Assembly: GCA_036001065.1 (NCBI GenBank)
Contig: DASYUQ010000174.1
Location: 1-64,000, forward strand
From: Candidatus Methylomirabilota bacterium
Lineage (GTDB): Bacteria > Methylomirabilota > Methylomirabilia > Rokubacteriales > CSP1-6
Direction of reading: 5' to 3'
DNA: 64,000 nucleotides
Position numbers and translations under genes: made by a program. Positions 4,374 through 9,866 of this stretch are shown here, piece by piece. The first letter of the stretch is position 1. Each line of letters opens with the position of its first letter. The notes under the pieces were generated by a model that did no database searches, had not been told where the DNA came from, and saw only the letters and a program-made list of their open reading frames with translations.

Positions 4374-5645
4374 TCACGCCTTCCAGCTGTTGATCCACTC
4401 GTAGAGGCCCAGGCCCGAGGGTTTCTGGATCTGCCTGGTGGACATCACCTCGAGGGGGTCGACGGTGACGAAGTCGTGCTTGTTCCGGTAGGTGCTGAGG
4501 CCCTGGAAGAAGCTGCACTCCATGATGTGGTCGGCCCGGTAGCTACGCTTGCCCGACAGCGACTCGACCTCCATGCCCTCCAGCGCCTCGATGATCTGGT
4601 CGGGAGACGGCCACTTGCCGCCCGCGGCCCTGGCGGCCTTCTCCACCGCCGCCCGGTAGGCTGCCAGCGTGAAGTAGGCGTGGTCCGATTCGTAGTTCGG
4701 CCACTCCTTGAACCGCTCCTGGTGCCAGCGGACGAACTCGCGGAGGAGCGGGCTCGCGTTCGGCGCCTCGAAGTACATCGAGTTGTAGCCGAGGATCATC
4801 CCCTCGGGCGTGAATGCCTTCTTGAGCGACTCGTGCACGCCGCCGGCCGTGGTCATGACAAATCTGATGGTGGCCGTCAGCCCGGCTGCGTGAGCCTGCT
4901 TCATCAAAATCGGGGCGTCGCCCGACCAGAACGAGCAGAAGATCAGGTCGGGCCGGGCCTGCCCCAGCGCGGCCACGTGCGAAGTGAAGTTGGTCTCGCC
5001 CAGCTTGGGCCAGAGGTCCACCACCGGCGTGACGCCCATCCCCAGCTTCTTCATGATGGCCAGGAACGCCGCCCAGTTGTCGCGCCCGTACGAATAATCG
5101 TTGTTGATGCCGGCGACCGTCTTGATCTTCCCCTTGAAGTGCTTGGCGGTCAGGATCGACGCCATCACGGCTTCCGCCTCGTTATCGACGCTGCGGAACG
5201 AGTACCGGGGCTTGGGCATGGTCTCCTCCACGCCCTTCTGGGTCGTGGCGTCCCAGGCCAGCCACAGCGTCTTGAGCTCCTCGGCGACGGGACCGATGGC
5301 CAGGCCCACCCCCGTGGAGACGACGCCGGTGATGACATCCACCCGGGTCTGCAGCGCGAGCTTCCGGAACCGCTCCACCGTGTCTTTGGGGTTCGACTCT
5401 TCCTCGACGACCAGCTCGATCCGGCGGCCGAGGATGCCGCCGGCCGCGTTGATGCGGTCCACGGCGAACTGCGTGCCCCGGAGCCCGGACTCCCCCACCG
5501 GCGCCGTGACTCCGGCCTTGGCGGCCAGCACCCCGATCTTGACCGGACCCGCCTGCGCGAACGCGGGCGGCCCGTCCAGCCGCGCCGCCAGCGCGGCCGA
5601 GGCGCCGCCGAGCAGTCTCAGAAAGTTGCGCCGTGTCGTGGCCAT
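4374..5645 (-). CDS. ABC transporter periplasmic substrate-binding protein (Leu/Ile/Val-binding type, Tat signal)
   Basis: 423 residues from an ATG preceded by GGGAGG at 6 bases. A twin-arginine signal is visible at residues 4-20 (TRRNFLRLLGG) followed by an Ala-rich stretch and AFAQA cleavage site, so it is probably exported folded through Tat. The mature part is a periplasmic-binding type 1 fold (KIGVLAAKAGVTAPVGESGL, then AVDRINAAGGILGRRIELVV). It heads the operon followed by LivH and LivM-LivG and would deliver the ligand. Ligand identity cannot be read; relatives bind branched-chain amino acids, amides, urea or aromatic acids. Confidence 0.9.
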   Translation of the reverse strand: MATTRRNFLRLLGGASAALAARLDGPPAFAQAGPVKIGVLAAKAGVTAPVGESGLRGTQFAVDRINAAGGILGRRIELVVEEESNPKDTVERFRKLALQTRVDVITGVVSTGVGLAIGPVAEELKTLWLAWDATTQKGVEETMPKPRYSFRSVDNEAEAVMASILTAKHFKGKIKTVAGINNDYSYGRDNWAAFLAIMKKLGMGVTPVVDLWPKLGETNFTSHVAALGQARPDLIFCSFWSGDAPILMKQAHAAGLTATIRFVMTTAGGVHESLKKAFTPEGMILGYNSMYFEAPNASPLLREFVRWHQERFKEWPNYESDHAYFTLAAYRAAVEKAARAAGGKWPSPDQIIEALEGMEVESLSGKRSYRADHIMECSFFQGLSTYRNKHDFVTVDPLEVMSTRQIQKPSGLGLYEWINSWKA

Positions 5646-5787
5646 GCGGACCTCCCTCGGTGTCCGGAGCGTTCGTGCCGCCCGCGGGGCGCCTCATTCT
5701 AGCGCGCTTGATCGCCGGCGGCCACGGCCAGCATGCTAGAATTCGTGACGCCGGCGTTGGAGATTCTGGCCGACCGATGGAGGGCTC
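5646..5787. promoter_or_regulatory. Divergent promoter region with mirrored GCTAGAAT motifs
   Basis: The 142 bases separate the divergent ABC operon and signalling gene. The 8-mer GCTAGAAT occurs at 5735-5742 on the plus strand and its exact inverse at 5695-5702, 32 bases apart, each oriented toward its own gene and resembling a -10 box (TAGAAT). No clear -35 is visible at 17 bases. It could be paired promoters or a dyad operator. Confidence 0.35.
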
Positions 5788-8028
5788 GTGCACGTACGCT
5801 TCTGGGGAACGCGCGGCTCCATCGCCGCTCCGGGTCCGGACACGGCGCGGTACGGCGGCAACACCTCGTGCGTCGAGGTGCGGAGTGACGACGGTACGCT
5901 GATCGTGCTCGACTGCGGCACCGGCGCGCGGGCGCTCGGCCTGCACCTGGCGCGCTCGGAGGCCCAGCCCCTCCGGCTCAACCTCTTCATCGGACACACC
6001 CACTGGGATCACATCCAAGGCTTTCCCTTCTTCGTCCCGGCGTTCATGCCGGGCGTCGAGCTGAACATCTATGCCCCCGTCGGCTTCCAGCGCAGCCTGG
6101 AGGAGGCGATGGCGGGGCAGATGGAGTACGCCTACTTCCCGGTGACGCTCCGTGATCTGCGGAGCCGCATCCACTTCACCGAGCTGGACGAGGGTTTCTT
6201 CCGCCTGGGCGACGTGCTGGTCGAGACGCAGTACCTCAACCACACCGCGCCCACCATCGCCTACCGGATGTCGGCGGGCGGCGCCACCATCGCCTACACG
6301 ACCGACCACGAGCCGTTCTGGAAGCCCGGGGGCGGGGTCTCCGACCATCCGGGCGACCAGAACCACATCACGTTCCTGCGCGGCGCCGACCTCGTCATTC
6401 ACGACGCGCAGTACAGCGACGAGGAGTACCAGGGCAAGATCGGGTGGGGCCACAGCCCCGTCGAGTACGCCACCGACGTCGCCCTGGCCGCCGGCGTGCG
6501 CCGGCTCGCGCTCTTCCACCACGACCCCACCCACGACGACGCCATGATCGAGCGGATGGAAACGTGGGCCCGTGACCGCGCCGCCCGCGCCGGGGGAGGC
6601 CTGGAGGTCTTCGCGGCCGCCGAGGGGCTCGCGCTGCGGGTGGACGGGCGGGGCGCCGTCAAGCCGGTGGCGGCGATCTCGGCTCTCCACCGCCGTCCGG
6701 TGGCCGGCGGGCGCGTGCTGCTGGTCAGCTCCAACGGCGACGAGATCGCGGCCATCGAGGAGATTCTGGCGGCGGACGACCTGTCGGTGGTCGCGGTGCC
6801 GGACATGCGCGCCGCGCTGACGCGCGGCCCCGAGGTCGCCCCCGACCTGGCGATCGTCGACGCGCGCCTGCCCGACGGCGACGGCGCCGCCCTGATCCGT
6901 TCCCTGGTCGAGCGCATGGGGCGCCGCAGCTTCCCGATGCTGCTCCTCACCGAGGAGCCGAGCGCGGCGCAGGCGGCCGAGAAGGCCGGCGCGCCCTTCT
7001 GCGATTATCTGGCCAAGCCCTTCAGTCCGCCGATGCTCCATGCGCGGGTGCGGGCGTGGCTGGCGCGGGCGCTGGCCACCGCGGAGGCGGCCAGCCCCGA
7101 GCACGTCGAGACTCGCCAGGCCGACGAGCCCCGCGATTTCGCCGGCATCCTCGCCCAGTTCCCCCTGTTCCAGCCGCTGGGGGGCGAGCGGCTGCGACAT
7201 CTGATCCAGGGCGCCACCGAGCACGCCTATCCGGCCGGCCACGTCATCGTCAGCGAGGGCGAGCTCGATGAGCGCGTCTTCGTCATCCTTTCCGGGCGCG
7301 TCCGCGTGGTCGAGGCGATGGCCGACGCGATGACCGAAGCCGTCCTCGGCGGGCTCGGGGAAGGGGAGATCTTCGGCGAGCTGAGCACGCTGACCAGTCG
7401 GCCGCGCTCGGCGACCGTCATCGCCATGGAGCGGACCCGCTGCCTGGCGCTGCGTCACGAGCGCTTCCTCCAGGCGCTCGAGGGCTCTTCCGAAGTGGCG
7501 CTGGCGCTCCTGCGGCTGCTCGCGCGGCGGCTGCTCGAGGCCGACCGCCGACTGGCCCGCTATGCGCCCGACACCCTGACGGGTCTGGCCAGCCGCCGCG
7601 CGTTCCACGACCAGTACCGGCGGCTCGCCGCCGGCGCCCGGCGCCGGAAGAGCGGCGTGTTGCTGCTGCTCTTCGACGTCCTGCGTCTGAGGACGATCAA
7701 CGACCGCTTCGGCTACACGGTCGGCGACGAGGTGCTGCGCACCGTCGCCGACGCGCTCACCAGCACCACCAGGGCGACCGACCTCGTCGCCCGCTACGGC
7801 GCCGACGAGTTCGCCCTGCTCCTGCTGGACACGCATGCCCGCGACGTCGAGCGGGTGCTGCACCGCGTGGCGGAGAAGCTCTCGGAGCTGTCGGGCCGCC
7901 GGGGGCTGTCGCTCACCGTGCAGTGCAGCGTCGGCGTCTCCTTCCGCGAGGTGCCGCCGGACGTCGCCGACGAGCTGGTGCGGGAGGCGGACGGGGACAT
8001 GCGCCGCGGCCGCCTGGTGCCCGCCTGA
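5788..8028 (+). CDS. MBL-fold hydrolase / receiver / cyclic-nucleotide-binding / GGDEF four-domain signalling protein
   Basis: 746 residues from a GTG with GGAG 5 bases upstream. Residues 1-~280 form a metallo-beta-lactamase fold with the metal motif H70-T-H72-W-D74-H75 and further His/Asp ligands (NHTAPT, TTDHEP, FHHDPTHDD). Residues ~305-420 are a receiver domain with phospho-acceptor D358 and K410. Residues ~455-585 are a cyclic-nucleotide-binding fold (GEGEIFGELSTLTSRPRSAT). Residues ~590-746 are a diguanylate cyclase domain with GADEF at 671-675 and an allosteric I-site RATD at 662-665. GADEF is a tolerated variant, so c-di-GMP synthesis is possible but unproven. No membrane segment or signal peptide is seen. 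It is a single-gene unit; downstream is a repeat in a convergent gap. The MBL substrate is unknown. Confidence 0.9.
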   Translation: MHVRFWGTRGSIAAPGPDTARYGGNTSCVEVRSDDGTLIVLDCGTGARALGLHLARSEAQPLRLNLFIGHTHWDHIQGFPFFVPAFMPGVELNIYAPVGFQRSLEEAMAGQMEYAYFPVTLRDLRSRIHFTELDEGFFRLGDVLVETQYLNHTAPTIAYRMSAGGATIAYTTDHEPFWKPGGGVSDHPGDQNHITFLRGADLVIHDAQYSDEEYQGKIGWGHSPVEYATDVALAAGVRRLALFHHDPTHDDAMIERMETWARDRAARAGGGLEVFAAAEGLALRVDGRGAVKPVAAISALHRRPVAGGRVLLVSSNGDEIAAIEEILAADDLSVVAVPDMRAALTRGPEVAPDLAIVDARLPDGDGAALIRSLVERMGRRSFPMLLLTEEPSAAQAAEKAGAPFCDYLAKPFSPPMLHARVRAWLARALATAEAASPEHVETRQADEPRDFAGILAQFPLFQPLGGERLRHLIQGATEHAYPAGHVIVSEGELDERVFVILSGRVRVVEAMADAMTEAVLGGLGEGEIFGELSTLTSRPRSATVIAMERTRCLALRHERFLQALEGSSEVALALLRLLARRLLEADRRLARYAPDTLTGLASRRAFHDQYRRLAAGARRRKSGVLLLLFDVLRLRTINDRFGYTVGDEVLRTVADALTSTTRATDLVARYGADEFALLLLDTHARDVERVLHRVAEKLSELSGRRGLSLTVQCSVGVSFREVPPDVADELVREADGDMRRGRLVPA

Positions 8029-8202: not shown

Positions 8203-8946
8203 CTAGCGGCGTCTCTTGCGGTTGACGAACGCCTCGATCAGCTCCCGGGCGGCCGGACTCGTCCTCAGCGCCGCCCCGTAGGCCTCGGGCTCCGGGCCGC
8301 GCCCGCCGCCCCGCAGCGTGGCCACGATCGCCTTCGTCGCCGCCAGCCCCACCCGCGGCGAGCGCGCGATGTCGGTCGCCCACGCCTCGGCGGCGGCCTC
8401 CAGCGTCGGCGCCGCCACCACGCGGTTGACGAGTCCCATCCGGAGCGCCTCACTGGCGTGGATGGTGCGCCCGGTCAGCAGCAAGTCGCGGCCGTGGGTG
8501 CCGCCGGCGACGTCCAGCAGCCGGGCGATCCCGTAGGCGGGGTTGAAGCCGAGCGTCACCTCGGGCAGGCCGAAGCGGGCGCGGTCCGACGCGATCCGCA
8601 AGTCCTGGGCCACCGCCAGCATCAGCCCGCCCCCCAGGGCGTAGCCGTCGACCGCCGCCAGCGTCACCTGCGGCAGGCGCGCGAAGCGCTCCAGGAGCGC
8701 CGCCTGACGCCGGGCCAGCGCCTCGGCCTCCTCCGCGCTGAGCGTGGCCATCTCGGTGATGTCGTTACCCGCGCAGAAGGCGCGGCCGCGCCCGACGACG
8801 ACGAGGACGCTGACGTCCTCCATCGCGCTGACGCGGTCGAGCGCCCCCTCCAGCGCTGCCGTGAGCGCACGGTTCAGCGCGTTCAGCGCCTCGGGACGGC
8901 TCAGCCGGAGCCAGGCCACGCCGCGCCCGGTCTCCAGATCGAGCAT
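8203..8946 (-). CDS. Enoyl-CoA hydratase/isomerase family protein
   Basis: 247 residues if translation starts at the ATG at 8946, which overlaps the stop of the upstream creatininase gene (TGATG); a GTG at 8973 would add nine residues. This is a crotonase fold with the oxyanion-hole segments RAFCAGNDITEM and DGYALGGGLMLAVAQDLR, followed by FGLPEVTLGFNPAYG. The usual catalytic acid position reads PEV, as in active hydratases. It probably hydrates or isomerises an acyl-CoA in the cytoplasm; chain length and true substrate are not deducible. It is last in a seven-gene minus-strand run. Confidence 0.88.
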   Translation of the reverse strand: MLDLETGRGVAWLRLSRPEALNALNRALTAALEGALDRVSAMEDVSVLVVVGRGRAFCAGNDITEMATLSAEEAEALARRQAALLERFARLPQVTLAAVDGYALGGGLMLAVAQDLRIASDRARFGLPEVTLGFNPAYGIARLLDVAGGTHGRDLLLTGRTIHASEALRMGLVNRVVAAPTLEAAAEAWATDIARSPRVGLAATKAIVATLRGGGRGPEPEAYGAALRTSPAARELIEAFVNRKRRR

Positions 8947-9866
8947 CAGGCGCGGGGGCGCGGACGGAGCCACCCGAGCGCGGCGAGGGCGAGGCCCGCG
9001 GCGGCGGCCAGCGGCCAGAAGTTGGTGCGGAAGAACGGGAGCGAGAACAGCAGCGAAGGGCGATCGCCGGGGCCGAGCCGCCCGTCCAGCAACGCGTCCA
9101 CGAGCGCCATCGCCTCGCTCACCAGCACCTCGGTCGTGGCTTTCGCGAAGGCCGGGTCGGCCAGCGCCGGGTGGCCGACGTAGCCTTCACCGCCGCCCTT
9201 GAGCGGATAGTTGGGGATCAGGCGCTCGGGGAGCGAGTAGGTGGCGGGAGGCAGGGTGCGGTAGGCCTCGTCGACCAGCTCGGGCCGCAGCATCAGCATC
9301 ATCGAGGTCTCCCACCAGCCCGCGTGCGCGTCCTCCGCGAAGGCCCGCTGCTCGGCATCGCTGAGCGGGCGGCCCAGAGCCGCCTCGACCTTGTCGAGGA
9401 AACGGCCGGAGCGGAAGGCCCAGGCCAGCCGGCCGCTCAGAGAGGCCATTCGTACCCCGCGGCGCCGCGAGACGAGGGTCGCCGCCTCGTCCAGCGCGAC
9501 GAGATGGGTGGGGCCGGCGTGGCCATTGGCCACGAGGATGTGCCGGAAGCCGGCGCGGGCGAGGGCGTCGCCCCAGTCCACCAGCGCATCCCGCACCACG
9601 CGTTGGCGCACGGCGACGGTGCCGGCGGCGTCGAAAGCGCACGAGCCGAGGTGGAGGGTCGGGGCCAGGACGACCGCCCATCCCGGTCGCTCGGCGACCA
9701 GGCGCGCGGCGATCTCGCGCGCGAAGTGGCGCGCGGTGAACGCATCGACACCCAACGGCAGGTGGGGCCCGTGCTCTTCGAGCGGGCTGACGGTGAGGAT
9801 GATGACGGTGCGCTGCCGGTCGAGCGCGTCCAGCGCCCGCGTGGACATCTCTTCGAGTCGATGCAC
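8946..9866 (-). CDS. Creatininase-family amidohydrolase with C-terminal membrane helix
   Basis: 306 residues from a GTG at 9866, two bases after the upstream stop. The family metal-binding segment PLEEHGPHLPLGVDAF (E30, H32, D41) is intact, as are NGHAGP (usually NGHGGN) and HAGWWETS. The family includes creatininase and Fe(II)-dependent formamide hydrolases of cofactor pathways. Unlike most members, the last ~35 residues form a hydrophobic helix (NFWPLAAAAGLALAALGWL) ending in Arg/Pro, suggesting anchoring at the membrane. Neighbours are a membrane acyltransferase and an enoyl-CoA hydratase, so a lipid-linked or acyl-amide substrate is possible, but that is inference. Confidence 0.83.
   Translation of the reverse strand: MHRLEEMSTRALDALDRQRTVIILTVSPLEEHGPHLPLGVDAFTARHFAREIAARLVAERPGWAVVLAPTLHLGSCAFDAAGTVAVRQRVVRDALVDWGDALARAGFRHILVANGHAGPTHLVALDEAATLVSRRRGVRMASLSGRLAWAFRSGRFLDKVEAALGRPLSDAEQRAFAEDAHAGWWETSMMLMLRPELVDEAYRTLPPATYSLPERLIPNYPLKGGGEGYVGHPALADPAFAKATTEVLVSEAMALVDALLDGRLGPGDRPSLLFSLPFFRTNFWPLAAAAGLALAALGWLRPRPRA

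Follow-up and report, generated by a model that had tools for sequence, protein, structure and literature searches.

A recurrent MBL-receiver-cNMP-GGDEF protein of Rokubacteria that may link cyclic-mononucleotide and c-di-GMP signalling

How might a metallo-hydrolase, a receiver, a cyclic-nucleotide-binding (cNMP) domain and a GGDEF domain work together in one polypeptide? The question is raised by a locus in a stretch of 64,000 nucleotides (the window) from a Candidatus Methylomirabilota bacterium (GCA_036001065.1, contig DASYUQ010000174.1). The preliminary description of this DNA had claimed one 746-residue protein with four domains, and this was borne out: window positions 5788..8028 on the + strand hold a single open reading frame (stop at 8026-8028) encoding a 746-amino-acid MBL-REC-cNMP-GGDEF protein, P0001. 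Translation begins at a GTG codon just downstream of a probable ribosome-binding site, GGAGGG, read from the sequence at 5779..5784 (+), and alignment of ortholog starts shows that relatives begin at the same residue, with the start region MxVRFWGTRGS. Pfam places Lactamase_B_2 (PF12706) at residues 39-245 (55.9 bits, cut-off 27), Response_reg (PF00072) at 310-422 (46.7 bits, cut-off 30.2), cNMP_binding (PF00027) at 479-565 (74.3 bits, cut-off 27.5) and GGDEF (PF00990) at 595-740 (107.7 bits, cut-off 23.8), in that order and all above cut-off. When the gene is compared with its nearest relative, which is 96% identical, third codon positions hold 93 of the 129 differences, and dN (0.024) is about one-seventh of dS (0.17). 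The reading frame is therefore coding and under purifying selection. The opposite strand over this GC-rich region is also open, with no sign of a gene there. A chance reading frame or a chimera is ruled out by the purifying selection together with the presence of the same architecture in many species.

The combination of domains had been called unfamiliar. This holds insofar as no published description of it was found in the papers searched, but many proteins share it. A phylum-wide search of 95 genomes recovered full-length four-domain matches in 27 of the 57 genomes of the source family and none outside that family in the same phylum. Among named relatives the closest is Candidatus Rokubacteria bacterium 13_1_40CM_69_27, and named contigs with the architecture also come from Nitrospirota, two Acidobacteriota and one Chloroflexi-labelled MAG. 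The four-domain proteins form one clade, lying on one side of a single branch of the MBL tree (support 98), where their neighbours are MBL-receiver-cNMP proteins that lack GGDEF (L055 and L021; the receiver of L055 scores below the Pfam threshold). This clade is nested in a much larger MBL-receiver family, spread over many phyla and with the metal site preserved, that appears to be uncharacterised in the papers searched; Pfam scans of 55 of its members found MBL in all 55, a receiver in 43, GAF in 22, cNMP in 18 and GGDEF in 17. Two paralogues are present in the window's own genome, one of two domains (L003) and one MBL-receiver-GAF protein (L002). The four-domain protein is thus recurrent and not an oddity of one genome.

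Three loci met in this survey deserve separate mention. A whole-length four-domain match in a Lake Baikal Nitrospiraceae MAG (L053:4986-7272) has its frame broken after 87 codons, through either decay or sequencing error. Two contigs bear the titles Klebsiella pneumoniae and Halobacteria archaeon (L088 and L073), but the extended MBL-receiver genes on them cluster with those of Verrucomicrobia and gammaproteobacteria; both are probably mislabelled or misbinned MAGs. A search of plasmids returned distant MBL domains only.

We give a roughly even chance to the reading that P0001 is a node linking cyclic-mononucleotide and c-di-GMP signalling, and its domains are considered below against this reading and its rivals. 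The GGDEF (diguanylate cyclase) domain spans residues 595-740 (7570..8007, +), and the best PDB sequence match of P0001 is PleD. Translation and clade alignment place the motif GADEF at residues 671-675 (7798..7812, +) and an I-site, RATD, at residues 662-665 (7771-7782, +). Both elements had been noted beforehand and are present; the former, however, departs from the GG[D/E]EF signature. The residues for metal, guanine binding and the I-site (D630, N638, D647, D673, E674, R662 and D665) are kept in 23/23 four-domain proteins, while the second position of the signature is glycine in 14/23 relatives and alanine, serine or threonine in the other 9/23. In Vibrio fischeri, four cyclases lost much of their function through the same glycine-to-alanine change (PMC11575326). 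Proteins with a natural GADEF have been termed degenerate, although in one case, XOC_2335, function depended on the motif (PMC4823724). Since GADEF is the change that has been used to inactivate cyclases, cyclase activity may be weak or lost in P0001. The earlier proposal of a diguanylate cyclase output thus stands as far as its metal, guanine and I-site residues go but is called into question by the signature: judged from these residues, activity is likely in the four-domain family and uncertain in P0001 itself.

The same evidence bears on a reverse flow of information, in which the GGDEF domain of P0001 is catalytically dead and serves through its I-site as a c-di-GMP receptor, so that c-di-GMP controls the MBL hydrolase. 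The inactivating nature of the substitution would fit such a receptor, as would the retention of the I-site throughout a clade in which nine members lack the glycine. The clade does not, however, look like one with a decaying site: most members have the glycine, and D, E, F and the residues for metal and guanine do not vary. We regard reverse flow as somewhat unlikely.

For the preferred reading, in which a cyclic mononucleotide is the incoming signal, the cNMP domain is the obvious candidate sensor. It covers residues 466-566 (7183..7485, +; PF00027) and contains a phosphate-binding cassette, FGELSTLTSRPRSATV (7372..7419, +), with the Gly-Glu pair and arginine of a cyclic-nucleotide-binding domain at G530, E531 and R540. 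Within the four-domain clade the glycine and glutamate are conserved in 23/23 proteins and the arginine in 22/23, and the cyclic-nucleotide fold proposed at the outset is confirmed by the Pfam domain and the intact cassette. In an AlphaFold2 model of the full-length protein, a helix at residues 568-592 (7489..7563, +) runs from the cNMP to the GGDEF domain and is a candidate signal-transmitting helix. PADLOC gave no sign of a defence role, its matches involving the cNMP domain alone.

The N-terminal metallo-beta-lactamase-fold (MBL) hydrolase domain spans residues 1-290 (5788..6657, +), on the evidence of PF12706, PDB matches and an AlphaFold2 model with a mean pLDDT of 86. The intact HxHxDH metal site of the preliminary description is there, as HTHWDH at residues 70-75 (5995..6012, +), and further metal ligands lie at H152 (6241-6243), D173 (6304-6306) and H244/H245 (6517-6522), all on the + strand. 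These ligands are invariant in alignments of 38 and 55 sequences and in 23/23 four-domain proteins. H205, D206, Q208, W220, G221 and H222 are likewise invariant in the two alignments, which suits catalysis. The model matches the structures of RNase Z (1y44), a B. anthracis homologue (1zkp), YhfI (6kns), PhnP, yeast PDE1 and Apyc1; scored by target length, YhfI fits best (TM 0.78), while its sequence similarity to the domain is weak (profile match, E 4e-4).

Atypical class II phosphodiesterases belong to the PF12706 family (PMC9293780), and their complete metal site (HxHxDH, H, D, H) is found in P0001. The threonine or serine that they carry before the motif is not: this residue is glycine (G69) in P0001 and in all 25 four-domain proteins, and over 95 relatives it is serine in 40, threonine in 22 and glycine in 33. 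Cyclic mononucleotides are substrates of YhfI, Rv1339 and Apyc1 (PMC9117128, PMC9293780), and our leading hypothesis, by analogy with these enzymes, is that the MBL domain hydrolyses them too. The earlier suggestion that the hydrolase removes a second messenger is accordingly plausible: the domain is of the phosphodiesterase/RNase Z branch and its metal site does not vary.

Of the solved structures RNase Z gives the highest-scoring sequence match, so RNA or another phosphodiester is also possible as substrate, and the domain could be an RNase Z-like nuclease or some other phosphodiesterase or phosphatase whose activity is tied to c-di-GMP. The RNase Z model TIGR02651 does score 76.8 bits on P0001, but this is far under its curated cut-off of 292.95. 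The stretch between the two halves of the domain is only ~31 residues long by profile alignment, against ~66 in RNase Z, so the tRNA-binding (exosite) arm is missing, and the structural fit favours YhfI. On the score and the missing arm RNase Z proper is rejected, and the broader alternative appears unlikely.

Sensors are found among MBL-fold proteins that are fused to signalling domains. The domain might then sense metal, redox state or a ligand and provide another input to the GGDEF domain, with no signalling substrate of its own. A sensor of this kind would suit a family in which the MBL domain is conserved and the parts C-terminal to it differ. Against it, the invariance of the six residues beyond the metal ligands speaks for an enzyme, and the MBL oxygen sensors that are known carry HxExDH at the metal site; we consider a pure sensor improbable. 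Hydrolysis of a cyclic mononucleotide remains the preferred activity.

The receiver lies at residues 308-425 (6709..7062, +; PF00072). The phospho-acceptor named beforehand, D358 (6859-6861, +), is kept, as are T388 and K410, but residue alignment shows that the acidic Mg2+-binding pair is replaced by S314-S315 (6727..6732, +). The full acid pair is present in 29/32 two-domain MBL-receiver proteins and in 0/62 fused forms (35 extended, 2 cNMP and 25 four-domain). Among the 25 four-domain forms, D358 stays aspartate in 22 and K410 is kept in 19. On these residues the domain is most likely a degenerate pseudo-receiver.

No kinase gene adjoins the P0001 locus. Upstream and divergent is a gene for a branched-chain amino-acid transporter binding protein (window 4374-5645, -), and downstream and convergent is an enoyl-CoA hydratase gene (window 8203-8973, -) that is apparently conserved as a neighbour at ~13 Rokubacteria loci; neither offers a functional clue. 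Because the receiver is degenerate and an adjacent kinase gene is lacking, phosphorylation is unlikely, and the two working inputs of the preliminary description are not supported. That an orphan kinase still phosphorylates the receiver is highly improbable. In its favour are D358, T388 and K410; against it, S314/S315 stand in for the acid pair, both acids occur together in none of the four-domain relatives, three relatives have asparagine or serine in place of D358, and the neighbours encode a transporter component and a hydratase. Elsewhere in the family, five two-domain genes with canonical receivers (L059, L067, L081, L087 and L089) directly adjoin histidine-kinase-like open reading frames, recognised by pattern search only, and each pair is likely to form a two-component system with a hydrolase output.

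The window's genome has nine class III cyclase matches, six GGDEF proteins (seven matches), and six HD-GYP-type and two PilZ domains; no EAL domains were found in it. Class III cyclases occur in 57/57 genomes of the family, with up to 39 per genome. With class III cyclases, GGDEF, HD-GYP-type and PilZ domains in the genome, both a cyclic mononucleotide and c-di-GMP are likely to be made and read in this organism. The same genome encodes a CHASE2-class III cyclase-PilZ protein (L118:265-2367; C116, ~60.97-61.82 kb), possibly a link in the other direction, with a domain of the c-di-GMP-binding type on a cyclase.

No cyclase gene was found near the P0001 locus. Both MBL-receiver paralogues of the window's genome lie ~3-5 kb from a cyclase, and in another genome (G079, L142:2446-7358) a cyclase-AAA-TPR gene and a canonical MBL-receiver gene share a strand, the former ending ~12 bases before the start of the latter; another cyclase of that kind lies <2 kb further on. 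Linkage to a cyclase was seen at only 3/21 family loci, plus two of the other loci examined. Since there are up to 39 cyclases per genome, a rough estimate gives one or two such linkages by chance, and the association of MBL-receiver genes with class III cyclases is suggestive only.

Several known systems share parts of this arrangement. Dictyostelium GbpA and GbpB, compared here by description only, have an MBL phosphodiesterase on the N-terminal side that is activated by downstream cNMP domains; they are eukaryotic, with two cNMP domains and no receiver or GGDEF mentioned. Bd1971 of Bdellovibrio, a cAMP-sensing c-di-GMP phosphodiesterase, also links two messengers directly by fusing a cNMP domain to a c-di-GMP enzyme (PMC6717892), but it has an EAL domain (degradation) where P0001 has GGDEF (synthesis), and neither an MBL domain nor a receiver. 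Leptospira Lcd1, as far as it is cited in PMC6717892, places a GGDEF domain under cAMP control; there cAMP is sensed by a GAF domain and an MBL domain is not mentioned. The atypical class II phosphodiesterases YhfI, Rv1339, CpdA and Apyc1 share PF12706 and HxHxDH with P0001 (PMC9293780, PMC9117128), and the YhfI and Apyc1 structures match its MBL model; they differ in being stand-alone enzymes and in the threonine or serine, instead of glycine, before the motif. Regulators of the PleD/WspR type resemble P0001 in having a receiver upstream of GGDEF, whereas the P0001 receiver lacks the acid pair and is separated from GGDEF by the cNMP domain. P0001 is neither an RNase Z nor a canonical response regulator, and our working likeness, by analogy, is a GbpA/GbpB-like MBL-cNMP unit joined to a GGDEF domain.

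For P0001 the domains, conserved residues, clade, acid-pair loss and fold similarity are established. We infer the MBL substrate, the cNMP ligand and the direction of control as follows. cAMP or cGMP produced by the genome's class III cyclases would bind the cNMP domain, and binding would shift helix 568-592 and so set GGDEF activity. The N-terminal MBL domain, perhaps stimulated by the same binding, would hydrolyse the cyclic mononucleotide and end the signal. The pseudo-receiver would act as a spacer or dimerisation element and receive no phosphorylation input. With its GADEF motif, P0001 could make c-di-GMP weakly or, through the kept I-site, act as an effector that binds it, while the GGDEF domain of most relatives looks catalytic. 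A one-polypeptide converter, which senses and destroys a cyclic mononucleotide through its MBL and cNMP domains and makes c-di-GMP through its C-terminal domain, replacing one signal by the other, with the pseudo-receiver as mechanical coupling, is a distinctly tentative proposal.

The link from cyclic nucleotide to c-di-GMP is attractive for P0001, and the reading with phosphorylation as a second input is weakened. Systematic loss of the acid pair whenever domains are added would fit a receiver that has become a connector, which can be put to the test. The lineages concerned, Rokubacteria and Nitrospirota, are known largely from metagenomes, and learning what one MBL-receiver protein does would inform the many whose annotation stops at 'MBL fold metallo-hydrolase'. 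Should cAMP or cGMP prove to be cleaved by the MBL domain, and GGDEF to be under the control of the cNMP domain, then in this soil or groundwater bacterium of the Rokubacteria the breakdown of a cyclic mononucleotide and the synthesis of c-di-GMP would be directly linked in one bacterial protein.
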